54,761 nucleotides of DNA, taken from assembly GCA_025465355.1 (NCBI GenBank), contig JAODNN010000049.1:1-54761 (forward strand), given 5' to 3'. How positions within the stretch are numbered: the first letter of the stretch is position 1; each line of letters begins with the position of its first letter. The notes beneath the pieces were generated by a model, which ran no database searches, was not told the origin of the DNA, and was given only the letters and a program-made list of their open reading frames with translations. Shown one piece after another: positions 3,219 to 46,287 of the stretch. The position numbers and the translations under genes were made by a program. Source of the DNA: Blastococcus sp. (GTDB lineage: Bacteria > Actinomycetota > Actinomycetes > Mycobacteriales > Geodermatophilaceae).

Positions 3219-3412
3219 GACCTCCGTCGGGTATCCACGCCCTGGACAGACCGACGGCGGAAGTGTCCTGGCTCCCGGATCGACGTTTCGCTCGCCTTCC
3301 GGCCCTCGAGAGGGCCGTGGCATGTCGAGGTTCACTCCCCGGTGACAGTGGCGGGACCGCGCCGGATTCTCACCGGACTTCCTTCACTGCCGTCGCGGTC
3401 AGCCTGCCACGA
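3219..3412 (-). promoter_or_regulatory. Cobalamin riboswitch
   Basis: Read on the minus strand, the leader contains the conserved cobalamin-riboswitch core: GGAAGTCCGGTGAGAATCC, then CGGTCCCGCCACTGTCACC, and a B12-box-like GCCAGGACACTTCCGCC further downstream. It lies directly before the leader ORF and bluB-cobT. The CCGTCGG at the end of the B12-box region (plus-strand 3251-3257) can pair with CCGACGG (3224-3230), which runs into the GGAGG ribosome binding site. This suggests translational repression when cobalamin is bound. The 5' boundary is approximate. Confidence 0.92.
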
Positions 3413-3421
3413 GCGTGTCGC

Positions 3422-17537: not shown

Positions 17538-19085
17538 GTGCTGCTCGCCGACGTCGTCGCTGCCTCGTCCGCGGTCGCGGCCACCCGGTCACGCACGGCG
17601 AAAGCCGGCAGGATCGCGGAGCTCCTGCGCCGGGCGGACGCCGACGAGGTGGTGCCGGTCACCGCGTGGCTGGCGGGTGAACCCCGGCAGGGGCGGCTGG
17701 GCATCGGTCGGCGCACCGTGTCGAAGACGGCGGCCAAGCCGGCACCGACGTCCTCCCTGACCGTCGCCGCCGTCGACCAGGCCCTGACCGAACTCGCCGG
17801 CACCTCCGGCACCGGCTCGGCGGCGCGGCGCGACGCCGTCCTCGGCGCGGTGCTGTCCGAGGCCACCACGGACGAGCAGCAGTTCCTCGTCCGCCTGCTC
17901 ACCGGAGAGCTGCGGCAGGGTGCCCTGGAGGGCGTGGTCCTCGACGCGGTCGCCACGGCCGCCGGTGTCCCGGCCGCGAGCGTCCGACGGGCGTTCATGC
18001 TGTCCGGGCGGCTGCCCGAGACCGCGGCCGCCGCACTGATCGGCGGCGTGGACGCGGTGGACTCGGTGCGGCTGGAGGTCGGCCGGCCCGTGCACCCCAT
18101 GCTCGCCAGCCCGGGCTCCTCGCTCCGCGAGGCCCTCACCGACCTCGGCAGCGACGTGACCGTCGAGTTCAAGCTCGACGGCGCCCGGATCCAGGTCCAC
18201 CGGGACGGCGACGTCGTCCGGGTGTGGACCCGCACCCTGCGCGAGGTGACCGACAGCGTGCCCGAGCTCGTCGACCGCATCAGGGCCCTGCCGTGCGACA
18301 CCACCGTCCTCGACGGCGAGACGCTCGCCCTGGACGACGGCGGCCGGCCACGCGCGTTCCAGGACACGATGAGCCGCTTCGGCGGCGATGCCTCCGAGGA
18401 GGGGGTGCTGCTCAGCCCATTTCTGTTCGACGTCCTCCATCTCGACGGCCGGGACCTGCTCGACGAGCCCCTGCACGTCCGCCTCGACGCGCTGGCGGGG
18501 CTGCTGGCCGACGAGGAGCACGCCGCCCTCCGGATGCCCGGCGTCCGCTCCCCCGGGCCCGAGCAGGCGGCGGGAGTGCTGGCCGACGCGCTCGCCGCCG
18601 GTCACGAAGGCGTCGTCGTCAAGGCCCTCGACGCCCCGTACGCAGCCGGCCGCCGCGGCAAGGCCTGGCAGAAGGTGAAGCCGGTGCACACCCTCGACCT
18701 CGTGGTGCTCGGTGCGGAGTGGGGGTACGGCCGCCGCTCGGGGAAGCTGTCGAACATCCACCTCGGCGCCCGGGATCCCGACGGCGGCGAGCCGGTCATG
18801 GTGGGCAAGACCTTCAAGGGCATGACCGATCAGCTGCTGGAGTGGCAGACGCGGACCTTCCCCGAGCACGCCCATGAGCGCGCCGACTGGGGCGTGCGCC
18901 TCCGGCCCCACCTGGTCGTCGAGATCGCCGTGGACGGCGCCCAGCGCAGCCCCCGCTATCCCGGCGGCGTCGCGCTGCGGTTCGCGCGGGTCGTGCGATA
19001 TCGGCCGGACAAGACGCCCGCCGAGGCCGACACGATCGAGACCGTGCGGCTCCTGCTCGCCGGGAGCCCAGTTCGGCGGAAGTGA
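17538..19085 (+). CDS. ligB: ATP-dependent DNA ligase, LigB type
   Basis: This 515-residue enzyme resembles the archaeal/eukaryotic ligase I-like LigB of actinobacteria, not the NHEJ LigD. The N-terminal helical DNA-binding domain spans about residues 1-180. The adenylation motif EFKLDGARIQ places the nucleophile near Lys212. Motif III-like DGETLALDDGG, motif IV EGVVVKAL and motif V AWQKVKPVHTLDLVV are present, followed by an OB domain with VGKTFKGMTD. It seals nicks using ATP and likely backs up the NAD-dependent LigA in repair. GTG at 17538 is used; the out-of-frame ATG at 17530 is not. Its stop lies just upstream of repeat copy A. Confidence 0.93.
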   Translation: MLLADVVAASSAVAATRSRTAKAGRIAELLRRADADEVVPVTAWLAGEPRQGRLGIGRRTVSKTAAKPAPTSSLTVAAVDQALTELAGTSGTGSAARRDAVLGAVLSEATTDEQQFLVRLLTGELRQGALEGVVLDAVATAAGVPAASVRRAFMLSGRLPETAAAALIGGVDAVDSVRLEVGRPVHPMLASPGSSLREALTDLGSDVTVEFKLDGARIQVHRDGDVVRVWTRTLREVTDSVPELVDRIRALPCDTTVLDGETLALDDGGRPRAFQDTMSRFGGDASEEGVLLSPFLFDVLHLDGRDLLDEPLHVRLDALAGLLADEEHAALRMPGVRSPGPEQAAGVLADALAAGHEGVVVKALDAPYAAGRRGKAWQKVKPVHTLDLVVLGAEWGYGRRSGKLSNIHLGARDPDGGEPVMVGKTFKGMTDQLLEWQTRTFPEHAHERADWGVRLRPHLVVEIAVDGAQRSPRYPGGVALRFARVVRYRPDKTPAEADTIETVRLLLAGSPVRRK

Positions 19086-19105
19086 CGCCCTAGCCGGCGC
19101 TTTCC

Positions 19106-19187
19106 TGCGGCGACAGGCAATCCGATTTATCAACACCAACTCACGCCGCTGTCGAACTCAGCCGGTGCTGAGTTCGGCAGCAAGGGG
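19106..19187 (+). repeat. Intergenic hairpin repeat, copy A
   Basis: Copy A has the conserved left arm (TGCGGCGACAGGCAATCC, then GATTTATCAACACCAACTCA) followed by a 15-base-pair hairpin with one mismatch (19148-19162 with 19167-19181, loop CGGT). It lies 20 bases after the ligase stop, between tail-to-tail genes, so it may also act as a terminator. The left arm matches copy C in reverse orientation (about 34 of 39 bases), and the hairpin matches copies C and D. Confidence 0.8.
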
Positions 19188-19331
19188 TGAAACGGGTTGG
19201 CAAGTCCTCCGCGCCCCTCCGGACGCCGAGGCACAACGGACGCCTCCGCCGGATGCGGGCCGGGCACTACGGGGCGGACGCCTCGCGATCACGTCGAACA
19301 CCCACCAAGCGCCGGCTCGCCGGCGTGAGGC

Positions 19332-20201
19332 CTAGCTGCCGGCGGGGTCGGTGTGCACGGCGTTGACCTCGACACTGCGCGCGCGGGTGGGCGCCGCACC
19401 GGCCCTGACGGCGGCGATCGCCTCTCGCTGGCTGAGCCGCGTGCCCGCGGTGAACAGCTCGTCGAAACGGACAGGTCCCAACTCCCGGCCCACGTGGCTG
19501 AACAGGTCCGCCATCGGCGGGGGCGTGGCGAAGGGGCGGAGTCCGGCCCGCCGGCGCACGCCCTCGGCGGCCCCCGCCAGCCGCGCAGCCTGCTCGACGT
19601 CGCCTTCAGCGCCGGCCCACTGCGCGAAGGCGGCCAGGCTGAGGGAAACGACGCGGGTCCAGTGCCGGGTCCAGCTCAGGTCCAGCGCCTTCTCCAGCAG
19701 CGCGGCCGCCTCGTCCAGACGGGATTGCGCGACGGCCAGGGTGCCCAGATGCAGGCGCGCGCCCGCGATCAGCCGGTCGTTGCCCAGCCGTTCCGCGAGA
19801 TCGCTCATCTCGCGCAGGTGGTCCGACGCGTCGTCGTAGCGGCCCAGGGTCATCTCCTGCACGCCGAGGACGGTGAGCGTGACCGCGGTCCAGAACGGCT
19901 CGTCCTGCCCGCGCAGCTCGCCCAGCGAGGCGGATGCCTCCCGCGCAGCACGGTCCGGGTCGCCGAGGATCGACGACGTCCAGCCCATCGCCAGCTCGGC
20001 GATGGCGTGCAGGTACGGCTCGGAGATCGTCTCCAGCACCGGACCCAGGCGGTCGCGGGCCGCCCGGGCGGCAGCGTCGTCGGCCTCCCGAGTGGCGGCT
20101 ACCGCGGCCAGCTGCAGCTCGGCTCGGGCGTGCGGGTCCAGGGTCGCCGCGGTGGGCAGCAGCTGCTCGACCCAGCTGCGGGCCCGATCCGTCACCCTCA
20201 C
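19332..20201 (-). pseudogene. C-terminal remnant of a TPR/AfsR- or LuxR-like multidomain regulator
   Basis: The 289 codons encode helical TPR-like repeats (ELAMGWTSSILGDPDRAARE, LTVLGVQEMTLGRYDDASDH, AGARLHLGTLAVAQSRLDEA) and a tail ending RLSQREAIAAVRAG, a pattern typical of the C-terminus of large ATP-binding regulators or cyclase-like proteins. Such proteins are usually 800-1100 residues, with an N-terminal ATPase and a DNA-binding domain. Here the frame begins abruptly within the TPR region at a GTG with no good ribosome binding site, directly against repeat copy B. I therefore call it a 5'-truncated remnant created by rearrangement at the repeat. It could still be expressed as a short TPR protein. 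Confidence 0.65.
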
Positions 20202-20212
20202 TAGCCGTACTT

Positions 20213-20262
20213 AGCCGGTGCCGAGTTCGGCAGCAAGGTGACTTCGGGTGGGAAAGTCGTTC
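20213..20262 (+). repeat. Intergenic hairpin repeat, copy B (right half)
   Basis: Copy B carries the right half of the repeat: GAGTTCGGCAGCAAGGTGAC and CTTCGGGTGGGAAAGTCGTTC end to end over 20223-20262, preceded by AGCCGGTGCC. The left half is missing and replaced by the truncated TPR gene. Positions 20223-20262 match copy C (23029-23069) in inverted orientation with one mismatch and one single-base gap. Confidence 0.8.
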
Positions 20263-20481
20263 TCAAATGATGCCTGCGGCCGTCTGGTCGCCGAGGGTCT
20301 CGGCCAGGTAGCACCCTGCCCGCGGTGGCCCGCGTGGTCTCCCAGCCGGGTCGGCGTCGGTGGCGGTCGTCTCATCAGGCATGACGGGCACCGGTGGGCG
20401 AGGAGCCGTGTGGGTTCTGGTGGCTCGGTCGGTGTCGGGCACGGGCTCACCAGCGGCTTCCGGGTGCCGATCGTCTTCGGT

Positions 20482-21339
20482 TCAGACGGGCTGGCCCCGG
20501 AGCGCGTCGTCGGCCCAGCGGCTGAAGCTGGTCCACTCGACCGTGGGGAACGCGCGGTGCAGCCGTTCGATGTCGACGGCGTAGCCGCCGGCGGCGATGA
20601 AGGCCCACATCGCGCCGATGTCGGGGTCGCTGCGCCGCACCGGGTCGAGCGGCTCCTCGTGCACCTCCACGGCCCGGCCGAGCACCCGGCTGCATACCGC
20701 GGCCATGTCGTCGGCGGACACGGCGTCGCTGGCGAGCTCGATCCGCCGCCCGGCGAACGCGGCGGGGGTGGTGAGCACCTCGGCGCCGACCTGGCCCAGG
20801 TCGGCGCGGGCGAGCTGCTGCAGGGGGAAATCGTGCGGCAGCGGCAGCTTGAGGATTCCGGAGAAGAGCTCGTCGTCGCCGCGAAGCAGGTTGTCGTAGA
20901 AGTAGACCGGGCCGAGCACCGTGAACGGGACGTCGCCGTGCTGCAGGGCCCGCTCGACCACGGCCTTGCTCTCGAAGTGCGGTACCCCGCTGTGCCGATC
21001 GGCGCCGGCCACCGAGCTGTACACCAGGTGCCGGACCGCGGCCCGCCGGGCGGCGCGCAGCACGGTGAGCCCCTGCTGCGTCTCGGTGTCCGGTCCCGCC
21101 TCGAACGGCGTGGTGACCGCGAAGACCGCGAAGACCCCGCGCATCGCGGCCGTCAGCGAGGCCTCGTCGGTGAGGTCCCCGGCGGCCAGCTCGACACCCC
21201 GCCGGGTCAGGGCCTCAGCCGCTGGGCTGCGCGGGTTGCGGACCAGCACGCGAACCGGTGTTCCGTGTCTGCGCAGTGCGGCGGCGGCGGCACCGCCTTG
21301 TCCGCCGGTGGCGCCGAGGACGAGCACGGGAGCGGTCAT
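20482..21339 (-). CDS. NmrA-like NAD(P)-binding protein
   Basis: The 285-residue protein is an atypical short-chain dehydrogenase of the NmrA/HSCARG group. The N-terminal dinucleotide motif is VLVLGATGGQGGAAAAALRR, followed by VRVLVRNP, which favours NADP. YSSVAGADRHSGVPHFESKAVVE is a typical NmrA block (YSS..., HFESK). The catalytic YxxxK of classical SDRs is absent, so it could be a redox sensor or a reductase. The ATG at 21339 has GGAGA upstream. It is divergent from the cupin and TetR genes within the repeat-bounded block. The segment 20263-20481 downstream of it holds no convincing gene. Confidence 0.9.
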   Translation of the reverse strand: MTAPVLVLGATGGQGGAAAAALRRHGTPVRVLVRNPRSPAAEALTRRGVELAAGDLTDEASLTAAMRGVFAVFAVTTPFEAGPDTETQQGLTVLRAARRAAVRHLVYSSVAGADRHSGVPHFESKAVVERALQHGDVPFTVLGPVYFYDNLLRGDDELFSGILKLPLPHDFPLQQLARADLGQVGAEVLTTPAAFAGRRIELASDAVSADDMAAVCSRVLGRAVEVHEEPLDPVRRSDPDIGAMWAFIAAGGYAVDIERLHRAFPTVEWTSFSRWADDALRGQPV

Positions 21340-21725
21340 GCCGGTCTCCTCTCGGGTGTGGACCCGACCCGCTCGCTGGTCGCCCGGCGACCGGTCCGCC
21401 TTCCCCGGGTGGCTCGGGCTACGGCTGGCAGGGGTAGGGATGGCCGTGCGGCCGAGGCCAGCGGCGTCGGCGCGCCCGACGCGCTCCCCGGAGGACACCG
21501 GGACGCCACAAGTGGACGTCACGTTCCGAATGAACCGTAGGCCGCGCGTGCTCGGACCCGCAAGACCGGAGGCCGTCGCACCCTGGTCTTGGAACGCCGC
21601 TCCTTCGCCGCGGACGCCCGGCAAGCGGGCACACGTGCGCGCACGACCCTGGCGCCCGGCAACCCCCGGAGCTAGCCTAACCGGAATGACTCGTCCGCTA
21701 CTGGCGCACCGATGGGAGTCGAGTC
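21340..21725. other. Intergenic region between the NmrA-like and cupin genes
   Basis: No gene is evident in these 386 bases. It must hold two divergent promoters. Possible operator-like dyads are GTTC-CGAAT-GAAC at 21523-21535 and CGTGCGCGCACG at 21634-21645; both are short and could be chance in GC-rich DNA. A TAGCCT at about 21675 may be a -10 element for the cupin gene, without a convincing -35. Confidence 0.3.
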
Positions 21726-22226
21726 ATGAGCTTCCCTCCCGCGACCTCTCCAGCGATGGGCTCAGGTGACGGCTTCGTTCTGGGCCCGGATGAGGGTCAG
21801 GCGTACTGGTGGCTCGGCACCCTGACGATCAACAAGGTCACCCGGGAGGCCACGCGCGGCGCGCTGGACATCGTCGACCACCGCGTGCCCGCCGGCTACG
21901 CCCCGCCCCGGCACGTGCACCGGGATCAGGACGAGGTCTTCTTCGTCCTAGAGGGAACCTTCGCCGTGCGCTGCGGGGAGCAGGAGTGGCAGGCCGGCCC
22001 CGGGGCGGTGGTCTTCCTTCCCCGGCAGGTGCCGCACGGCTTCACGGTGTCGCAGGACGGGCCGGCACGCACCCTGCTGATCAACGCACCGGCCGGCTTC
22101 GCCGACGTCATCACCGAACTCGGGCAAGCCACCGGACACCTCGTCCTTCCCGGACCGAACGTGCCCATGCCCGATCCCGAGCGCATCGCCGGGGTTTCGC
22201 AGGCGCACGGCATCTACGGCGCGTGA
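21726..22226 (+). CDS. Single-domain cupin protein (quercetinase-like)
   Basis: The 166-residue protein is a small cupin. Motif 1 includes AGYAPPRHVHRDQDEVFFVLEG, given here as PPRHVHRDQDEVFFVLEG, with the His-X-His, Glu metal ligands, and motif 2 includes PRQVPHGFTV with a fourth His. Such proteins bind Fe, Mn or Ni and include quercetin dioxygenase-like enzymes, but many act on unknown substrates. The ATG follows GGGAG. The stop overlaps the TetR-type start as GTGA, which indicates a two-gene operon in which the regulator may control the cupin and the divergent NmrA-like gene. Confidence 0.88.
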   Translation: MSFPPATSPAMGSGDGFVLGPDEGQAYWWLGTLTINKVTREATRGALDIVDHRVPAGYAPPRHVHRDQDEVFFVLEGTFAVRCGEQEWQAGPGAVVFLPRQVPHGFTVSQDGPARTLLINAPAGFADVITELGQATGHLVLPGPNVPMPDPERIAGVSQAHGIYGA

Positions 22227-22948
22227 GCCCCCACGCGGCGACCGAGGGCACCCCGGCGGCAGCGCAGCCCTCCGGGGTCGGCGCACCGCGCGATGACCCG
22301 ATGGCGGCACCTTCCAGCGCCGGCCCGGCCGCCGGGGTGGCGGCCACAGCCGCACCAGCAGACGGGGCGACACCAGCGCGGCCGCTGCGCCGCGACGCCC
22401 GGATCAACCAGGAACGGGTACTCGCGGCGGCGGTCAGCGCCATGCTCCGCGAGGGTCGGCAGGTGCCGATGGCCACCATCGCCGCCGAGGCCGGCCTGGG
22501 AGTCGGCACCCTCTACCGCCGCTATCCCAATCGCGAGGCGCTGCTGGACGCCCTGACCCACCGCTCCTTCCAACTGCTTCTGGACATCGCACACCAGACC
22601 GAAGCCCGCCAGGAATCCACCCTGTCCTGCCTGAGCTGGTGGTGGGATCGCGTCCTCGCCGAGCGCGCACAACTCGTGCTGCCCCTGGGCGGGGCACCCT
22701 TCGCGATGAGCACACGAACGCGGGCCGTGCGTTCGCAACTGCACGACAGCCTCCGTCGGCTCCTGACGCGCGGCCAACGCGAGGGCAGCATCCGCGACGA
22801 CGTCACCGTTGCCGACCTCATCATCTTCGGCGCCATCCTGGTCGCACCGCTACCCGGTGCGCCGGACTGGGACCGCACCGCCCAGCGGCAGAAGGAGATC
22901 TACCTCGACGGCCTCTCCCACACCCGCCGCTCACCGCTGCCGCAATAG
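22223..22948 (+). CDS. TetR/AcrR family regulator
   Basis: The 241-residue protein has a long Ala/Pro-rich N-terminal stretch, then a TetR DNA-binding domain: RRDARINQERVLAAAVSAML, VPMATIAAEAGLGVGTLYRR and YPNREALLDAL (about residues 55-105). A C-terminal helical ligand domain follows. GTG at 22223 overlaps the cupin stop; an internal ATG at 22301 is an alternative start that would remove 26 disordered residues. Local context suggests repression of the cupin operon and the divergent NmrA-like gene, as is usual for this family. The ligand is unknown. Confidence 0.87.
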   Translation: MSPHAATEGTPAAAQPSGVGAPRDDPMAAPSSAGPAAGVAATAAPADGATPARPLRRDARINQERVLAAAVSAMLREGRQVPMATIAAEAGLGVGTLYRRYPNREALLDALTHRSFQLLLDIAHQTEARQESTLSCLSWWWDRVLAERAQLVLPLGGAPFAMSTRTRAVRSQLHDSLRRLLTRGQREGSIRDDVTVADLIIFGAILVAPLPGAPDWDRTAQRQKEIYLDGLSHTRRSPLPQ

Positions 22949-23028
22949 CCCCCACGCACCCCGCGGAGAAGACGACAGCAGGCCTACGCGACCGGCGGGT
23001 CACGGGCCGCAGATCGCCAGCGGGCCAG

Positions 23029-23131
23029 GAATGACTTTCCCACCCAGAAGTCACCTTGCTGCCGAACTCAGCCGGTGCCCAGCGGCAGCAGTGTGAGTTG
23101 GCGTTGATAAATCGGGTTGCGCATCGCCGCA
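23029..23131 (-). repeat. Intergenic hairpin repeat, copy C (full length)
   Basis: This is the most complete copy, in reverse orientation. Its right arm (23029-23069) matches copy B, its left arm (23093-23131, GTGAGTTGGCGTTGATAAAT and onward) matches copy A, and the centre (AGCCGGTGCCCAGCGGCAGC) is an imperfect hairpin. It defines a unit of about 103 bases. Confidence 0.8.
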
Positions 23132-23180
23132 TGTCAGCGGGCGGATGCCTGGCTTTCACCCTGCTCGCGGGCCTGCGGAG

Positions 23181-23238
23181 TTATACACACCAACTCATCT
23201 TGCTGCCGAACTCACCGGGAGCTGAGTTCGGCAGCAAG
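23181..23238 (+). repeat. Intergenic hairpin repeat, copy D
   Basis: Copy D has a diverged left arm (TTATACACACCAACTCATC) and a perfect 16-base-pair stem, CTTGCTGCCGAACTCA (23199-23214) pairing with TGAGTTCGGCAGCAAG (23223-23238) around an eight-base loop. Between copies C and D, 23132-23180 resembles the right flank of copy A in reverse (CTTTCACCC), so C and D may be nested insertions. Confidence 0.75.
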
Positions 23239-23309: not shown

Positions 23310-25643
23310 GTGCACAGGCTTCGCGATTGGTGGCTCGCTCGCGACGGCGACCTGCGGGCGACGCGGCGCGCGGCCCGGACCGCGATCGTCATGCCGGCCC
23401 TGTTCGCGCTCGGGTCGCAGGTCATCGGGAATCCGAACGTCGCGACCTATGCCGCCTTCGGATCCTTCGCGATGCTGCTGTTGGCGGACTTCGGGGGCAC
23501 GCTCGCCGAGCGGCTGGCCGCGCAGTGCTCGCTGATCGCGATCGGCTGCGTGCTCATCGCCCTCGCGGCGGTGGTCTCGCGCAACCCGTGGGTGGCGGCG
23601 GCCGCCATGTTCGTCGTCGGGTTCCTGGTGCTGTTCGCCGGCGTCGTCAGCTCGGCGCTCGCGGCGGCGAGTACGTCGATCCTGCTGAGCTTCATCCTTC
23701 CGGTCGCCACGCCGGCCGGACCGGCGGCGATCCCGGATCGGCTGCTCGGCTGGCTGCTGGCCGGCATCGTCTCGCTGCCCGCCGTCACCCTGTTGTGGCC
23801 GGCGCCCCGCTCCGACCCGCTGCGCGACGCCGCCGCGGAGGCGTGCCGGCAGCTGTCCGCGCGCCTGACCGCCGAGGTCGCGCGGTGGCACGGCGAGGAC
23901 GGCGGGGACGTCGACGAGGCGGTCGCCCGGGCGAACGCCGCCGTAGACAGGCTCCGCGCCACCTTCCTGGCGACGCCCTACCGGCCGTCGGGGCTGACGA
24001 CGGCGACGCGCGCGGTGATCAGACTGGTCGACGAGGTCGTCTGGCTGAGCGTGATCCTGGACGACGCGGCGGTGCCCCGGCAGCGGCTGCCCGCGCACCC
24101 GACGGTCCGGGCCGTGAAGCGAGCGGCCTCGGTGCTGCTCGACCACGCCGGCAAGGCGCTCTCGCTCCACGAGCCACCGCAGGACAGCCTCCAGGACCAC
24201 CTCGACGACCTCGCCCGCGCCCGCCGGGTGATGGAGGCCGTGGCCATCGCCGAGTTCCGACTGCCGCGCGACGGGCGAACCGCCAAGGAGCTCGTCAGCT
24301 CCCTGGCCCCGAGCTTCCGCGCGGAGGAGCTCTCCTTCGCCGTCATGGCGATCGCCGAGAACATCGAGATCGCCTCGGCTGCCGAGGCACGCACCTGGTG
24401 GCAGAAGCTCCTCGGCCGGAGGCCGCGGGCGATGGCCGGCCCGATCGCCTCCGCGCAGGAGCGGGCGCGGGCGCACCTCGACCCGCACTCGGTGTGGTTG
24501 CGCAACAGTGTCCGCGGCGCGATCGCACTCAGCGGCGCGGTGCTGGTGGCGGATCTGAGCGGAGCTCAGCACTCGTTCTGGATCGTGCTCGGCGCGCTCT
24601 CCGTGCTGCGATCCAACGCCCTGAGCACCGGGCAGAGCGTCGTCCGGGGGCTCGTCGGGACGACGGTCGGGTTCGTCATCGGCGGTGCGCTGGTGCTGGT
24701 GCTCGGGAACCACCAGGTGCTGCTATGGGTGTTGCTGCCGGTGGCGATCCTGGTCGCCGGCATCGCGCCGGCGGTCTCGTTCGCCGCCGGGCAGGCAGGG
24801 TTCACCGTCGCGCTGCTGATCCTGTTCAACATCATCAGCCCGGCGGGCTGGCAGGTGGGCCTGGTGCGGATCGAGGACGTCGCCATCGGTTGCGCGGTCA
24901 GCCTGGTCGTCGGGGCGTTGTTCTGGCCGCGGGGCGCGGCGGGCGCCCTCCGGCAGGCCCTGGCGGAGGCGTATGCGGCGTGCGCTGCCTACCTGCGGAC
25001 CGCCGCGGAGAGCGGCATCGCGGTCGACGGATCAGCGGAGGAGCCGGGGCCGGCCGGGTCACGGGCGAGAGCTGCGGGCCGCCGTCTCGATGACGCGTTC
25101 CGGGAGTACCTGGCCGAGCGTGGCCGCAAGCGGCTGAGCCTCGCCGAGGTCGCGTCCCTGCTGACGGGAGTGGCGGGGCTGCGGCTGACCGCGGAGGCGG
25201 TCTCCGACCTCTGGACCGGTGCCGGGTCGGCCGGCATCGACACGCCGCGGGCCACGCTCGAGGTGATCATCACGACCGAGCGAGTGACCAACTGGTTCGC
25301 CGCGATGGCGCAGGCCTTGACCGGCGCCGGGACGGTTCCACGCGCGCTCCCGCAGGACGGCGCCTCCGCGAGCCGGCTGGTCGGGGCCCTGAGCGAGGAT
25401 CTCGAGTCGGTGTCCGCGCCGGACGCATCCGTCAAGGCGCACACGGTGCGGCTGGTGTGGACCAGCGATCACGTGGACGTCGCCCGCCGTCTGCAGGCTC
25501 TCGTCGAGCAACCGGCGCGGACCGCGGCCCGCTACCCCGAGCGCGTCGGCCTCTCGCTGCCCTCGTGGCTGCGCCCGGGTTCGGTGGCCGACGATGCCGC
25601 ATCGGGCGTCAGGCGCGAAGACCCCGCAGTCACAAGGAGCTGA
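23310..25643 (+). CDS. FUSC family membrane protein
   Basis: The 777-residue protein belongs to the fusaric-acid-resistance/aromatic exporter superfamily (FUSC, AaeB/YccS-like). It has two sets of hydrophobic helices (about residues 22-160 and 400-530) separated and followed by soluble helical regions, the typical duplicated layout. The second set includes SVRGAIALSGAVLVADLSGA and HSFWIVLGALSVLRSNALST, the hallmark FUSC block. It may export aromatic acids or other amphiphiles. GTG at 23310 is used; the Shine-Dalgarno sequence is poor. It stands alone next to the repeat segment and converges on the LLM gene with a 16-base gap. Confidence 0.9.
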   Translation: MHRLRDWWLARDGDLRATRRAARTAIVMPALFALGSQVIGNPNVATYAAFGSFAMLLLADFGGTLAERLAAQCSLIAIGCVLIALAAVVSRNPWVAAAAMFVVGFLVLFAGVVSSALAAASTSILLSFILPVATPAGPAAIPDRLLGWLLAGIVSLPAVTLLWPAPRSDPLRDAAAEACRQLSARLTAEVARWHGEDGGDVDEAVARANAAVDRLRATFLATPYRPSGLTTATRAVIRLVDEVVWLSVILDDAAVPRQRLPAHPTVRAVKRAASVLLDHAGKALSLHEPPQDSLQDHLDDLARARRVMEAVAIAEFRLPRDGRTAKELVSSLAPSFRAEELSFAVMAIAENIEIASAAEARTWWQKLLGRRPRAMAGPIASAQERARAHLDPHSVWLRNSVRGAIALSGAVLVADLSGAQHSFWIVLGALSVLRSNALSTGQSVVRGLVGTTVGFVIGGALVLVLGNHQVLLWVLLPVAILVAGIAPAVSFAAGQAGFTVALLILFNIISPAGWQVGLVRIEDVAIGCAVSLVVGALFWPRGAAGALRQALAEAYAACAAYLRTAAESGIAVDGSAEEPGPAGSRARAAGRRLDDAFREYLAERGRKRLSLAEVASLLTGVAGLRLTAEAVSDLWTGAGSAGIDTPRATLEVIITTERVTNWFAAMAQALTGAGTVPRALPQDGASASRLVGALSEDLESVSAPDASVKAHTVRLVWTSDHVDVARRLQALVEQPARTAARYPERVGLSLPSWLRPGSVADDAASGVRREDPAVTRS

Positions 25644-25659: not shown

Positions 25660-26688
25660 TCACGTCTCGGCCACCCGCGGGGCGACCTCCGTACCGAGCA
25701 GCTCGATGCCTCGCAGCAGGTCATCATGCGCCAGGCGCGTGTTGGTCATCTGCAGCGAGATCCGGTGCACCCCGCCCAGTTGCTTCGACACCCGGATCAG
25801 CTTGTCGGCCACGGTGTCCGGGTCGCCCATGAAGAAGGCCCCGTTCGGGCCGCTCGTGGCGTCGAACTGCGCCCGCGTCGGCGGTGCGAAGCCGCGCTCG
25901 CGCGACACCTTCGTGAACATCTCGTGCCACCCCGGGTAGATCGTGTCGGAAGCCGCCTGAGTGCTCTCCGCGACGAAGCCGAACACGTGGACACCGACCT
26001 TCAGCGACTCCGGCGGATGTCCGGCCTCCGCCCCGGCCCGGCGGTAGAGGTCGATCAGCGGCGCGAACTGGCGGGGCTCGCCGCCGATGATCGCCACCAT
26101 GAGCGGCAGTCCGAGGAGGCCGGCGCGGACGAAGGACTGCGGCGTTCCGCCGACGCCGACCCAGATCGGCAGCGGGTCCTGCAGCGGCCGCGGATAGACG
26201 CCCTGCCCGGTCAGCGCCGGGCGGTGCCGGCCGGACCAGGTGACGTGCTCGGAGTCTCGGATGCGCAGCAGCAGGTCCAGCTTCTCGGCGAACAGCGAGT
26301 CGTAGTCGGCGAGGTCCAGGCCGAACAGCGGAAAGGCCTCGGTGAAGGAGCCGCGCCCGACCACCAGGTCGACGCGGCCCTTCGAAATCAGGTCGACGGT
26401 GGCGAAGGCCTGGAACACCCGGACCGGATCGGCGGCGCTCAGCACGTTCACCGCGCTGCCGAGCCGGATGTGGGACGTGCGGGCTGCCGCCGCCCCGAGG
26501 ATCACCGGAGGTGAGGAGTCGTAGTACTCAGGGCGGTGGTGCTCGCCGATGCCGAACGAGTAGAGCCCGACCTGATCGGCGAGCGCAATCTCCTCGAGCA
26601 GGTGCTCCATCCGCTCCGCGGGCCCGATGACGCGCTCGGTCGACGGGTCGGTCACCGTCGAGACGAAACTGTCCACTCCGAGGTGCAT
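25660..26688 (-). CDS. LLM class flavin-dependent oxidoreductase
   Basis: The 342-residue protein is a bacterial luciferase-like monooxygenase (TIM barrel, FMN or F420). Characteristic blocks are FGIGEHHRPEYYDSSPPVIL (about residues 44-63), IRLGSAVNVLSAADPVRVFQ, DLVVGRGSF and PIWVGVGGTPQSFVRAG. The HH after GE in strand 2 marks the CE1758-like subgroup. The ATG at 26688 follows GGAAGGA. Substrate and electron donor cannot be told from sequence. The 274 bases upstream (26689-26962) hold no recognisable gene. Confidence 0.92.
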   Translation of the reverse strand: MHLGVDSFVSTVTDPSTERVIGPAERMEHLLEEIALADQVGLYSFGIGEHHRPEYYDSSPPVILGAAAARTSHIRLGSAVNVLSAADPVRVFQAFATVDLISKGRVDLVVGRGSFTEAFPLFGLDLADYDSLFAEKLDLLLRIRDSEHVTWSGRHRPALTGQGVYPRPLQDPLPIWVGVGGTPQSFVRAGLLGLPLMVAIIGGEPRQFAPLIDLYRRAGAEAGHPPESLKVGVHVFGFVAESTQAASDTIYPGWHEMFTKVSRERGFAPPTRAQFDATSGPNGAFFMGDPDTVADKLIRVSKQLGGVHRISLQMTNTRLAHDDLLRGIELLGTEVAPRVAET

Positions 26689-26962
26689 GGCGGTCCTTCC
26701 GGTGAGCGGCGGCGTGCGAGCGCAGAGCTCAGCCGGGCGTGTGTTGTCGTCGCGACGACTGATCCGCGCAACCGTCTGCCGGCCGATAACGTTCCTCGTC
26801 CGGGTCATTCTCCTTCCCGAAGGGAAGGGCCATGACGGTCACGTCGACCGCACCCGACCATGAGCGGCTTCGCCGACATCACGCGGGTCCATGACCTTGC
26901 CGAAATCTTTCGCCCGCACCAGAACATCGCTCGACAGCGCGAGGGAACGCGTCGAAGGGTTC

Positions 26963-32250: not shown

Positions 32251-33942
32251 CTATCCGGCGTTCTGCGGATGGCAGCGGACGGCGAGAACGGCGATGTCGT
32301 CGTCGGTCCGGCCGATCACGATTCGGCCGAGCACCTGATCGCAGAGCTCCTCCAGGGGCAGGCCCTGCAACTCGCCGAGGGTGTGGGTGAGCCGCTCGAC
32401 GCCCTCGTCGATGCCGGTGCGGCCGTGCTCGACGAGGCCGTCGGTGTAGAAGACCACGGTGTCCCCGGGTCGCAATTCGGCGGAATGGTCGGAGCGGGTC
32501 TCCGTCGCGTTCACCCCGAGCAGCCGCTCCGGAGCCGTGTCGAGCACCTGCACCCCGGCGTCGGGGCGCAGCAGCACCGGCGGTAGGTGACCGGCCGACG
32601 ACCACTGCAGCGTGCGCAGGCCCCGCCGGGCCTGCTCGGGGGTCTGTTCGATGCGGGCGATCAGCGCGGTTGCCATCGACCCGATCTGCAGCCCGGCGAG
32701 CACCTGGTCGACGCGGCGGAGCACGCGGGCGGGGCTCTCCGTCCGGTCGTAGGCGATGCCGCGCAGGATGCTGCGGATCTGGCCCATCGCCGCCGCCGCG
32801 TCGACGTTGTGCCCGACGACGTCGCCGATGACCAGCAGGGTGGCGCCGTCGGGCTGCTGGAAGGAGTCGTACCAGTCCCCGCCGACGTGCACGTTGCTTG
32901 CGGCCGGCTGGTAGCGGACGGCGATCTGCACGTGGTCGGGCTGCTGCGGCGGGGACAGCATGCTCAGTTGCAAGGTCTCGGCGACCTTCAGCTGTCGCCC
33001 GTAGAGCCGCGCGTTGTCCAGTGCCAACGCACCGCGCCGGGCCACTTCGACGGCGGTCGCGATCTCCATCTCGGTCAGCGGCGCCCGGGAACCGGAGTTC
33101 ATCATCGCCAGGGCGCCGAAGGTCTCCCCGCGGGCGCGTAACGGCACGATCGTGCACGAGCTGAGGTCCAGCCGCCTCCAGGCCGCGCGCACCTCGTCGG
33201 TCGGCAGCGACGTCTGGATGAGGTCCTCGTCGATCGTCGTCACCTGCACCGGCGCCCCGCTGAGCAGCGCGTCGACCATCGCCGCGTCGTCCCCGGCGTC
33301 GCGCAGCCGGCCGCGGAGGTAGGTGTCGAGGTCGACGCGCCGCGCCTGGTCGCGATGGGCCCAGGCCTCCTCGCCGGGCTCCCCGTGCTCGCCCACCAGC
33401 GCGACGACCGCCCAGTCGCACAGCCGGCGGACGGCCAGCTCGGCCAGTTGGCCGGCTGACTCGCCGGTATCCAGCGTCGTGATCATGGCCTCGGATACCT
33501 CGGCCAGGAAGCGGAGCCGGTCGCGGTCGGCGTCCGCGCGCTGATCGCCGGCGTCCTCGAGTGGGCCGGCGACGTCCGGCCGTTCGGTGAACTGGTCGCT
33601 GGAGTCGTGGAAGTACACCTGTAACAGGTCATCGACGACGACGGCCGTGGCGCTGATCCAGCGGCCCGCCGGCGCGTAGTAGCCCTGCCAGGTCACCCGC
33701 GTCCCGATGCTGCGCGCGTGCAGCAGGAAGCCGTGGAAGATGGTGCCGCCCACCTCCGGCAGAGCGACCCAGATATTGCGGCCGACGAGCTCGCTCGCGC
33801 GCCGTTCGACCAGCGCCGCGCCCGCCGGGTTGATGTAGCGGATGGTCCAGTCGGCGTCGAAGACCGCGACACCCTCGGGCATGGCCTCCAGGGCGGCCGT
33901 CAGGGGCGCCAACCCCAGCAGCGCTGCGGAGGTGTTGTGCAC
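32251..33942 (-). CDS. PAS-GAF-PP2C (RsbU/SpoIIE-type) serine phosphatase, paralogue 1
   Basis: The 563-residue protein has a PAS domain (about residues 12-120; AVFDADWTIRYINPAGAALV), a GAF domain (about 150-310; LAELAVRRLCDWAVVALVGE, GETFGALAMMNSGSR) and a C-terminal PP2C-type phosphatase (about 340-560). Metal-binding motifs are VGGDWYDSF, VIGDVVGHN, FYTDGLVEHG and DDDIAVLAVR. Proteins of this type dephosphorylate anti-anti-sigma factors in partner-switching control of stress sigma factors. No anti-sigma or antagonist gene lies next to it. The GTG at 33942 has GGGAGG upstream. A close paralogue lies at 44527-46287. Confidence 0.92.
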   Translation of the reverse strand: MHNTSAALLGLAPLTAALEAMPEGVAVFDADWTIRYINPAGAALVERRASELVGRNIWVALPEVGGTIFHGFLLHARSIGTRVTWQGYYAPAGRWISATAVVVDDLLQVYFHDSSDQFTERPDVAGPLEDAGDQRADADRDRLRFLAEVSEAMITTLDTGESAGQLAELAVRRLCDWAVVALVGEHGEPGEEAWAHRDQARRVDLDTYLRGRLRDAGDDAAMVDALLSGAPVQVTTIDEDLIQTSLPTDEVRAAWRRLDLSSCTIVPLRARGETFGALAMMNSGSRAPLTEMEIATAVEVARRGALALDNARLYGRQLKVAETLQLSMLSPPQQPDHVQIAVRYQPAASNVHVGGDWYDSFQQPDGATLLVIGDVVGHNVDAAAAMGQIRSILRGIAYDRTESPARVLRRVDQVLAGLQIGSMATALIARIEQTPEQARRGLRTLQWSSAGHLPPVLLRPDAGVQVLDTAPERLLGVNATETRSDHSAELRPGDTVVFYTDGLVEHGRTGIDEGVERLTHTLGELQGLPLEELCDQVLGRIVIGRTDDDIAVLAVRCHPQNAG

Positions 33943-44526: not shown

Positions 44527-46287
44527 TCAGACGAGTTCCCGTGAACCCCGGTCGGGTCGGGGTTCGGCCGCCATCGACAGCGGCGCCGACCGCGGTCGGG
44601 GGTGGCACCGCAGGGCCAGGACGGCGACGTCGTCGTCGGACCCGCCGGCCAGGATGCGGTCGAACAGCTGGTCGCACAACTCCTCGACCGGCAGGTCCCA
44701 CAGTTCCGCGAGGACATCGGTCAGCCGGGTCATCCCCCGGTCGATGTCGTACCGGCCATGCTCGACCAGGCCATCGGTGACGAGGAGAACGGTGTCGCCG
44801 GGATGCAGCGGCACCTCGTGGTCGCGGCGCGGACCAGTCCATCCGGTGCCGAGCAACCGCTCCGGCGGACGGTCCAGCACGTGCACCTCGCCGCCGGGGC
44901 GCAGCAGCAGGGGCGGGACATGCCCGGCCGAGGACCAGTGCAGCGTCCGGATGTCTCGCTCGATGCGTCTGGCTGATTGCTCGACCCGGGCGACCAGCGC
45001 GCTCGCCATCGCATCGACGTGCAGGCCGGTGAGCACCCGGTCGAGCCTAGTGAGGGTCAGCGCGGGGCTGCCGGGACGGTCATAGGCGAGCGCACGGAGC
45101 ATGCTGCGCACCTGACCCATCGCTGCAGCCGCTTCCACGCTGTGCCCCACGACGTCCCCGATGACCAGCTGGGTGGCGCCGTCGGGCTGCTGGAAGCAGT
45201 CGTACCAGTCGCCGCCGACGGCCTGGTGGCTGGTGGCCGGGCGGTAGCGCACGGCGAACTGCAGGTGCTCGGGAGCGGTCTGCCCCGGCAGGGTGAGGAG
45301 GCTGCGCTGAAGCGTCTCGGCAACCTTGAGCTGCCGCCCGTAGAGCCTGGCGTTGTCGAGGGAGAGGGCGCCGCGCCGGGCCACCTCCACGGCGGTCGCG
45401 AGCTCCGTGGGCGTGTGCGGGGGCCGGGCGCCGGCGTTCATCATCGCCAGGACACCGAAGGTCTCGCCGTGAGCACGCAACGGCACGATCGCGGCCGACG
45501 ACGTGTCCAGACGGCGCCACGCGGCCTGCACTTCCGGGCTGGGCAGGGTGGGTGCGATCCGGGCGTCGTCGAGTGCCACCCGCACCGGCTGGCCGGTGCG
45601 CAGGGCGGTGACGATGGGGGTATTGCCGGAACGGCGCAGCCGGCCGTCCCGATAGGTGTCCACGTCGGCGCGGAGGGCGGGATCGCGATGTGCCCGCCCC
45701 TCCTTCCCAGGCCCGCCGTCCTCGCTGTTCAGCACGACGACCGCCCAGTCGCAGAGCCGCGACACAGCGAGTTCGGCCAGCTTGGTAGCGGACTCACCGG
45801 TGTCCAAGGTGCCGATCATCGTCTCGGTCACCTCCGCCAGGAAGCGCAGCCGGTCCGCGTCGGTGGCGCGGTCAGCATCCGCTGCCCGCGCCGGCGCACC
45901 CGGCGGGACGCGAGCACCGGCGGTCGTCGGCCAGTCGGTCGGATCGCCTGTCGCCTCCCGGAGGTACACGTGGAGGAGCTCCCCGACAGGCACCGCGGTG
46001 ACCGACGTCCGTGTCCCTTGGGGCGTGAGGCCCCCGCGCCCGACGACCGGACGGCCGGACCTGCGGGCGTCCTGCAGCAGGCCGCGCATGGCTCCCGTGG
46101 CGTCGGGCAGGTCGCCCACGAGGTTGCGACCGAGGAGCTGGTCCGGCCGGCGTCCCAGCAGCCGCGCGCCGGCTGGATTCAGATAGCACACCGTCCCGGC
46201 CGGATCGAGCACCACGAGCCCATCCGGCAGCGTCTCCATCACGGCCGCCAGAGGCACGAGCCCGAGCCCCCCTGCGACCGTGTTCAT
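44527..46287 (-). CDS. PAS-GAF-PP2C (RsbU/SpoIIE-type) serine phosphatase, paralogue 2
   Basis: The 586-residue protein has the same architecture as the protein at 32251-33942: PAS (VVLDPAGTVCYLNPAGARLL), GAF (LAELAVSRLCDWAVVVLNSE, GETFGVLAMMNAGAR) and PP2C (VGGDWYDCF, VIGDVVGHS, LVTDGLVEHG, DDDVAVLALR). Stretches such as VEVARRGALSLDNARLYGRQ are nearly identical between the two, so they are recent paralogues. It likely acts in anti-sigma partner switching with a PAS/GAF-sensed signal. ATG at 46287 is used; a GTG at 46290 precedes it. No partner genes are adjacent. Confidence 0.92.
   Translation of the reverse strand: MNTVAGGLGLVPLAAVMETLPDGLVVLDPAGTVCYLNPAGARLLGRRPDQLLGRNLVGDLPDATGAMRGLLQDARRSGRPVVGRGGLTPQGTRTSVTAVPVGELLHVYLREATGDPTDWPTTAGARVPPGAPARAADADRATDADRLRFLAEVTETMIGTLDTGESATKLAELAVSRLCDWAVVVLNSEDGGPGKEGRAHRDPALRADVDTYRDGRLRRSGNTPIVTALRTGQPVRVALDDARIAPTLPSPEVQAAWRRLDTSSAAIVPLRAHGETFGVLAMMNAGARPPHTPTELATAVEVARRGALSLDNARLYGRQLKVAETLQRSLLTLPGQTAPEHLQFAVRYRPATSHQAVGGDWYDCFQQPDGATQLVIGDVVGHSVEAAAAMGQVRSMLRALAYDRPGSPALTLTRLDRVLTGLHVDAMASALVARVEQSARRIERDIRTLHWSSAGHVPPLLLRPGGEVHVLDRPPERLLGTGWTGPRRDHEVPLHPGDTVLLVTDGLVEHGRYDIDRGMTRLTDVLAELWDLPVEELCDQLFDRILAGGSDDDVAVLALRCHPRPRSAPLSMAAEPRPDRGSRELV

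Follow-up and report, generated by a model that had tools for sequence, protein, structure and literature searches.

The window analysed here is a 54,761-nucleotide stretch of DNA from Blastococcus sp. (Geodermatophilaceae; GenBank assembly GCA_025465355.1, contig JAODNN010000049.1, positions 1 to 54,761 of the forward strand). It contains a three-gene block, here called E2, that lies between inverted repeats with a short direct duplication outside each of them, and that is probably a mobile insertion cassette (MIC) of an apparently undescribed transposon family. "Undescribed" refers to comparison with Pfam, NCBIfam, PHROGs, the PDB sequences and top-ranked literature matches; ISfinder was outside that comparison. 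The features of E2 and the copies of its flanking duplication are as follows.

20222..23070, no strand: E2 cassette, 2849 bp, defined by inverted ends and a perfect 8-bp duplication
20222..20262, plus strand: E2 left terminal repeat (copy B), from repeat search and alignment
20482..21339, minus strand: NmrA-family NAD(P)-binding oxidoreductase gene, E2 cargo (Pfam NmrA, 6.1e-47)
21726..22226, plus strand: cupin gene, E2 cargo (Pfam Cupin_2, 2.5e-15)
22301..22948, plus strand: TetR-family regulator gene, E2 cargo (Pfam TetR_N, 3.6e-8; TetR_C_43, 1.2e-10)
23029..23070, minus strand: E2 right terminal repeat (copy C), from repeat search and alignment
19161..19168, plus strand: GCCGGTGC duplication, copy 1, by 8-mer identity
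20214..20221, plus strand: GCCGGTGC duplication, copy 2, left of E2, by 8-mer identity
23071..23078, plus strand: GCCGGTGC duplication, copy 3, right of E2, by 8-mer identity

A first-pass annotation, made from the letters alone, had described copies B and C as inverted, as differing over some 41 bases by a single mismatch and a single gap, and as enclosing NmrA-like, cupin and TetR-type genes. Alignment and Pfam agree with it on both counts, and the repeats are real; their true ends, at 20222 and 23070, lie about one base further out than it had placed them. The terminal repeats are paired and start TGAGTTCGGCAGCAAGG. When a 91-base query containing B was compared with the 4.9-Mb genome, three matches were obtained: B itself, the best second match C (E 3.4e-11; 93% identity over 44 bp) and a further copy, A, at 19153-19206 (82% identity, E 7.4e-7). 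The perfect 8-bp repeat GCCGGTGC abuts both edges of E2. Since this 8-mer is frequent in the window (26 occurrences, 11.8 expected), its evidential weight lies in its position directly at both ends.

There is no transposase gene inside E2, whose three coding-like genes are the NmrA, cupin and TetR genes. Judged by family names only, the three genes resemble a small oxidoreductase/cupin module under TetR control. The first-pass annotation had also stated that no transposase or integrase was present; this is borne out for the 15 (5 + 10) of the 36 coding-like open reading frames (ORFs) listed for the window that were scanned against Pfam, none of which has such a domain and one of which had no match at all.

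Sequences related to the region of copy C were found in 10 of 61 genomes searched, the window's own included. One genome, G012, has related elements of 228-319 bp, each between 8-bp direct repeats, and one of these (L006) folds far better than its shuffled versions (z -8.6). Scanning a large genome collection for an end followed by eight bases and TGA returned 72 stretches, part of which are surely chance (for example those from Bacteroidales and Lachnospiraceae). The exact end pattern matched 2 of 394 genomes in a class-level scan, one being the window's own. With up to two mismatches it matched 62 of 112 family genomes, and 17 places in the window's genome; part of these matches are chance, since a reversed control pattern occasionally matches at the same threshold and some of the matches recur at one gene. 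Similar ends thus occur in many genomes and are not confined to the window, the alternative that the first-pass annotation had wished to see examined.

Comparison of 7318 left/right end pairs gave 37 distinct elements in which a perfect 8-bp repeat lies right at the edge; with the compared windows shifted (nine shifts, 1 to 30 bases) there were 0-2. With one mismatch allowed in the repeat there were 60 at the edge against 7-15 shifted, the extra rows including chance. Two of the 37 are pairings in the window (E2, and A to C), which leaves 35 other elements, spanning 178 bp to 9.25 kb and mostly actinobacterial. Among them are elements from Geodermatophilus, Blastococcus, Modestobacter, Nocardioides, Micromonospora, Actinotalea and Frankiaceae, and also from Acidimicrobiaceae, Ilumatobacteraceae, Microthrixaceae and one metagenome-assembled genome labelled Chloroflexi. 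Many have genes inside and no recognised transposase. Among 19 cargo proteins, picked by hand from the ORFs of a subset of the elements, 17 had Pfam matches and two had none. The families comprise RibD_C, mycothiol isomerase/DinB, SMP-30, esterase, TetR, glyoxalase, Fic, zinc dehydrogenases, GNAT acetyltransferase, short-chain dehydrogenase, 2'-5' RNA ligase, GAF-histidine kinase, TnpB, Na/H exchanger and MFS transporter.

Four pairs of elements lie at sites that share neither the 8-bp repeat nor any similarity of the flanks: L104 and L072 (92% identical over 658 bp), L112 and L151 (89% over the full length), L158 and L159 (87% over the full length) and the non-coding pair L016 and L006 (90%). 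Such recurrence of one element or cargo at unrelated sites, each time beside another 8-bp repeat, shows that the units move.

Two kinds of element may be described separately. A TnpB-like gene is the main ORF of 1.7-1.9 kb elements at L158 (631-2524), L159 (617-2509) and L125 (2073-3802), whose ends are similar, with TCGG/TAGG variants; L160 has a related gene. The 8-bp repeats of L158 and L159 are perfect. The largest element, a 9.25-kb cassette at L162 (573-9823) with a perfect 8-bp repeat, has at least eight coding-like ORFs, and the four of these that were scanned are a Na/H exchanger, an MFS transporter and two dehydrogenases; no transposase was recognised. Five viral contigs matched a 17-base end, with weak second ends (two mismatches) and no perfect 8-bp pair, and we set these aside as chance-like.

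The usual target of the family is TCA-N8-TGA, and a typical element starts with TGA and ends with TCA. The repeats are preceded by TCA in 33 of the 35 elements and followed by TGA in 27. Because many loci were fetched with a pattern that contains N8-TGA, the target is judged more fairly from the ten elements that came from similarity searches and not from the pattern; 8 of them have TCA before the repeats and 8 have TGA after. The target is often a host stop codon, in whose place the element's own TGA then stands. Counting coding-like ORFs of at least 100 codons over the 70 sides of the 35 elements, we found 16 ORFs, at 14 elements, that enter in the frame of the element's terminal triplet, with a stop in 16 of 16; ORFs closed by the element in the other two frames numbered 1 and 0. 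This bias may be caused by targeting, by selection against insertions that break genes, or by both.

Ends also occur back to back, eight bases apart. There are 8 distinct junctions of this kind without a mismatch and 20 with at most one mismatch per side, a few of the 20 probably being a single end beside an end-like target; with the same patterns, no back-to-back ends were found at any other spacing from 2 to 16. Looser end patterns gave a smaller excess at spacing 8 (57 against 8-23). The fetch pattern sets TGA at distance 8 and leaves the remainder of the second end free, and three of the eight perfect junctions (in the window, in G004 and on contig C177 of the window's own genome) stem from similarity searches. 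Stacking would result if the target were rebuilt at both edges by each insertion. The C177 locus (L032, 234-980) has stacked elements in which TGACCTCGGCAGG ends lie beside an end of the type seen in E2 (X), with GGAGCAGC in common. A second end type, Y, starts TGAGTACGGCT and has the same 8-bp repeat and stacking as the X family; elements with Y ends lie at L126 (431-1058), L147 (5826-6104) and L148 (5980-7748). By end type, 23 rows are XX (two being the window pairings), four are YY (two of them overlapping, at L148) and one, the neighbour of E2 called E1, is XY.

E2 itself is part of such a stack, built at the end of a DNA ligase gene around a hairpin element, here called M, that resembles a miniature inverted-repeat transposable element (MITE). 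The other features of the stack and its neighbourhood are these.

17538..19085, plus strand: ATP-dependent DNA ligase gene (Pfam DNA_ligase_A_N/M/C)
19060..19067, plus strand: left 8-bp target duplication of M, CCGGGAGC, identical to the 8-mer at 23215-23222
19068..19160, no strand: left half of M, a hairpin (MITE-like) element, from alignment of its degenerate left end with M's right end at 23214
19169..20213, no strand: E1, an element or fragment in the stack; left end X-type, right end Y-type, the same 8-mer on both sides
19332..20201, minus strand: TPR-type ORF within E1, possibly a 5'-truncated gene (Pfam TPR_12, 1.3e-8)
23079..23214, no strand: right half of M, from alignment and inverted arms
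23215..23222, plus strand: right 8-bp target duplication of M, CCGGGAGC, by 8-mer identity
23223..23250, plus strand: further X-type left end, directly after M's right duplication, from sequence and back-to-back junction
23310..25643, plus strand: FUSC-family transporter gene (Pfam FUSC_2)
25660..26808, minus strand: gene for a luciferase-like monooxygenase, which follows the ligase in six relatives and forms the right side of the apparent empty site (Pfam Bac_luciferase)

The order is thus ligase gene, CCGGGAGC, left half of M, GCCGGTGC, E1, GCCGGTGC, E2, GCCGGTGC, right half of M and CCGGGAGC, followed by the further X end, the FUSC gene and the monooxygenase gene. The 8-mer CCGGGAGC occurs 11 times in the window, which is the chance expectation, so its evidential weight is its location beside both ends of M. 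With E1 and E2 taken out, M is 237 bp long, the size of the G012 elements, and folds as a long hairpin with GCCGGTGC at its tip (the shuffle control was run for L006 only). Its inverted arms of 57 nt (19098-19154 and 23083-23139) are 81% complementary and its left end is degenerate. For the X end at 23223 no right partner was found, matches as far as 32000 all having four mismatches. The first-pass annotation had the gene to the left of B truncated exactly at that repeat. A 5' truncation of this TPR-type ORF is likely; its start is 12 bp inside E1's own end at 20213, and not at B.

The outermost insertion target was probably the original stop codon of the ligase gene, the ORF now running on into the element for a few codons. 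With most relatives, similarity ceases at about 19063, within CCGGGAGC, and several relatives have their ligase stop codon at the same point. The locus was compared in the best 30 of 111 genomes with a match, one of which is the window's own, leaving 29 loci that extend about 1.5 kb beyond the ligase match. In six of these the ligase and the monooxygenase are 10-54 bp apart, and in one more a gene lies between the two matches (923 bp). The monooxygenase is on the opposite side of the ligase in three and outside the compared stretch in 19; a FUSC match was found in none of the 29 within that stretch. From the seven relatives, ligase followed by monooxygenase is the apparent ancestral order, which would make their loci the empty site for the whole stack, of the kind that the first-pass annotation had proposed to look for. 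It had also allowed that the three genes of E2 might be syntenic in all relatives without repeats. At the DNA level, with two candidates scored per genome, the three-gene block was not found in the 111 other family genomes, which gave short matches only (the best being 143 bits over 373 bp).

Two features elsewhere in the window are recorded here for completeness: a cobalamin riboswitch at 3241-3413 on the minus strand (Rfam RF00174), and a diverged pair of sequences at 32516-33530 and 44849-45863, 72-82% identical in pieces, in the same orientation and 12.3 kb apart.

A candidate for the enzyme that would move these cassettes is found in longer elements of other genomes. The 4377-bp element L161, in genome G469, has family-type ends and a perfect 8-bp repeat, and encodes a 665-amino-acid protein, P0001, together with a second protein, P0002. 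Its first 16 bases are those of the cassettes, and like them it has an 8-bp repeat and a TCA upstream. A second element, L190 (4583 bp), was found through the protein and sits in TCA-N8-TGA. Elements with the same outer ends as the cassettes carry a transposase-like gene and an exonuclease gene. P0001 has no Pfam or NCBIfam match at E 1 and none at E 10 among PDB sequences; its sole match in PHROGs is weak (0.027), and no relatives of it were found in plasmid, phage and viral collections. A three-sequence profile (E 0.001) matched 6 of 112 family genomes (one weakly), with G469 and G473 as positive controls, and 6 of 396 phylum genomes (three weakly).

Asp 357, Asp 436, His 462 and Glu 563 are invariant in all eight aligned P0001-type proteins (two of the ten loci are unaligned). 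P0001 also has extra N-terminal Cys/His motifs. The distant member L192 matches the IS1249 model (1.8e-9) and the IS256 model (2.5e-5) around the second Asp and the CxxH part; this is far below the families' cut-offs, the best score, that of L192, being 37.3 bits against a cut-off of 300, with none for P0001. Given the invariant residues and the matches of L192, we read P0001 as a deeply diverged IS256-like DDE transposase in which D, D, (C)xxH and E would be the catalytic residues. P0002 is a DEDDh exonuclease (RNase_T, 4.5e-13), with the DxE, D and HxxxxD motifs present in six of six aligned proteins (two of the eight loci with the gene are unaligned). Its gene is directly beside the P0001-type gene in 8 of 10 loci, the exceptions being L207, whose contig is 3.4 kb long, and the most distant relative, L193. 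Weak P0002-like fragments were seen within or close to some cassettes. Ends with a duplication were found for four transposase loci (L161, L190, L191 and L192), and at L114 one end was seen in the piece examined. In G473, the two ends of an autonomous element, with the same 8-mer, are on separate contigs (L178, L167, L168 and L180; contigs C313 and C246), and an ORF adjoining this split element resembles a small insertion-sequence transposase by eye. Either the transposon is very large or the assembly is broken at this point.

The mechanism that we think most probable is that a P0001-family DDE transposase, supplied by longer elements with the same outer ends in which its gene usually adjoins the DEDDh exonuclease gene, would bind the ends of a cassette and move it in trans, inserting it between TCA and TGA eight bases apart. 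An element with TGA as its first triplet and TCA as its last would, on inserting at a stop codon, preserve the C-terminus and stop of the upstream gene and recreate TCA-N8-TGA at both junctions, so that further cassettes could stack. In the window, M would have inserted at the ligase stop, followed by E1 and E2 into M, plus the further end. An active choice of the stop codon as target, and trimming of DNA by the exonuclease during transposition, are putative parts of this scheme.

Several observations weigh against this interpretation. The fetch pattern fixes N8-TGA past one end and so favours the spacing of 8 and the TGA there. No flanking ORF is closed by the element in 21 of the 35 elements, the thresholds of the stop-codon count were chosen after an exploratory look, and in that look a few out-of-frame ORFs also touched an edge (e.g., at L009, L010 and L016). 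The transposase relatives L191 and L192 have different ends and 9-bp repeats, no ends were found for L205, L206, L193 and L207, and L193 had no exonuclease match in the 14 kb examined. The inner part of the E2 ends differs from that of the autonomous elements, so these need not be its exact partners. E2 itself is off consensus, with CGAG at its left end and TTA before and CCA after its duplications, and may therefore be a fossil that is no longer mobile. A P0001-type transposase was not found in the window's genome (an assembly 95% complete, in 195 contigs), and E2 would thus move only in trans, or be a relic. The first-pass annotation had suggested looking for a trans-acting recombinase near other copies of the repeat, and a good candidate is indeed present, in other genomes and not in this one.

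The block could instead have been made by homologous recombination or inversion between dispersed inverted repeats, a possibility that the first-pass annotation had named. The 17 end-like matches in the genome are dispersed as this would require, and inverted copies can recombine. Recombination predicts neither identical 8-bp sequences outside the repeats, nor the spacing of 8 between stacked ends, nor the presence of one element at several unrelated sites, each with its own 8-bp repeat, and we consider it very unlikely. The stacked gene blocks, the common junctions and the lack of a transposase among the scanned window ORFs would also suit an integron-like system, with the repeats as tyrosine recombinase sites and E1 and E2 as gene cassettes in an array. 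The core motifs of attC sites are GTTRRRY and RYYYAAC, which are absent from B and C (about 90 bases around each, both strands). Each unit here is bounded by an inverted end on either side and by an 8-bp duplication, features that integron cassettes are not known to have, and this explanation is scarcely credible.

The cassettes may be moved by a different, unrecognised transposase, the P0001-type elements merely having the same end sequence. The several types of inner end, the Y family with its different end sequence and identical duplication length and stacking, and the lack of a P0001 match in the window genome all fit this idea. It leaves unexplained why L161 has the first 16 bases of the cassettes, their 8-bp repeat and their upstream TCA, and why L190, reached by protein, likewise sits in TCA-N8-TGA; we regard it as improbable, and still as worth keeping in mind. 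Elements of the TnpB type (an RNA-guided nuclease) could be thought to drive the family, given the TnpB-like main ORF between such ends at L158, L159 and L125. The ends of these elements differ slightly, none of the 18 other scanned cargo proteins is TnpB, and transposition of DNA by TnpB alone is not known, so that we give this explanation next to no credence.

We conclude that E2 is probably a non-autonomous transposon cassette, which was one of the two origins considered by the first-pass annotation. The ends dispersed over many genomes, the target duplications, the stacking, the apparent empty site and the same cargo at unrelated sites all agree with this; the other proposed origin, recombination between dispersed repeats, leaves the duplications unexplained. 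Movement of E2 by a P0001-type transposase is suggested by the shared outer ends. On balance we favour, with some reserve, the broader proposal that an undescribed, mainly actinobacterial transposon family with a divergent DDE transposase and a DnaQ-type exonuclease runs trans-acting arrays of gene cassettes at stop codons, a counterpart of the integron. Among top-ranked literature matches, judged by title and the start of the abstract and with ISfinder not covered, we found no bacterial counterpart of the DDE and DEDDh exonuclease combination, and in the same literature no such elements in Geodermatophilaceae and no stop-codon insertion.

If this proposal is true, soil actinobacteria would have a testable route for gaining single metabolic or resistance-like genes with the insertion site unharmed. 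The family could also account for small gene islands that go unlabelled, Pfam having no model for the transposase. The combination of DDE transposase and DEDDh exonuclease, reported for the eukaryotic KolobokD elements, would now extend to bacteria, raising the question of what the exonuclease trims in the course of transposition.

The first-pass annotation had suggested a new cassette type. E2 is not a wholly new kind of element, since it works like a MIC; the novelty appears to lie in the transposon family. MICs are defined by a passenger gene between inverted repeats, no transposase gene, target duplication and mobilisation in trans (PMC3913671). E2 is like MIC231 of Bacillus cereus and the mic carrying qnrD in its passenger genes bracketed by inverted repeats, its lack of an internal transposase gene and its target duplication (GCCGGTGC), and it would fit the definition fully if candidate autonomous elements move it in trans. 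The E2 family differs from these MICs in its end sequence, its 8-bp duplication, its TCA-N8-TGA (often stop-codon) target, its end-to-end stacking, its many cargoes and its wide, mainly actinobacterial spread. M and the 228-319-bp elements of G012 are like bacterial MITEs in being short, with inverted ends and 8-bp repeats, and M, with CCGGGAGC on both sides of its inverted ends, has the features of a MITE; in the E2 family, in contrast to bacterial MITEs, elements that carry genes and reach 9.25 kb have similar ends as well.

The likeness of the transposase to IS256 and IS1249 is that of the distant relative L192 around the second Asp and the CxxH part. Duplications of 8-9 bp are usual for IS256. 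P0001 differs in having no model match, in its extra N-terminal motifs and in its exonuclease partner. That partnership recalls KolobokD, described as eukaryotic DDD/E transposons with a DDE transposase and a DEDDh (DnaQ) exonuclease in one element (PMC9587614). We liken the P0001/P0002 elements to KolobokD by this gene pairing alone; the E2 family is bacterial. The target of KolobokD is TTAA. From integron gene cassettes the E2 family differs in its sites and mechanism, B and C having no attC motif, and it shares with them the formation of arrays of exchangeable genes at one site.

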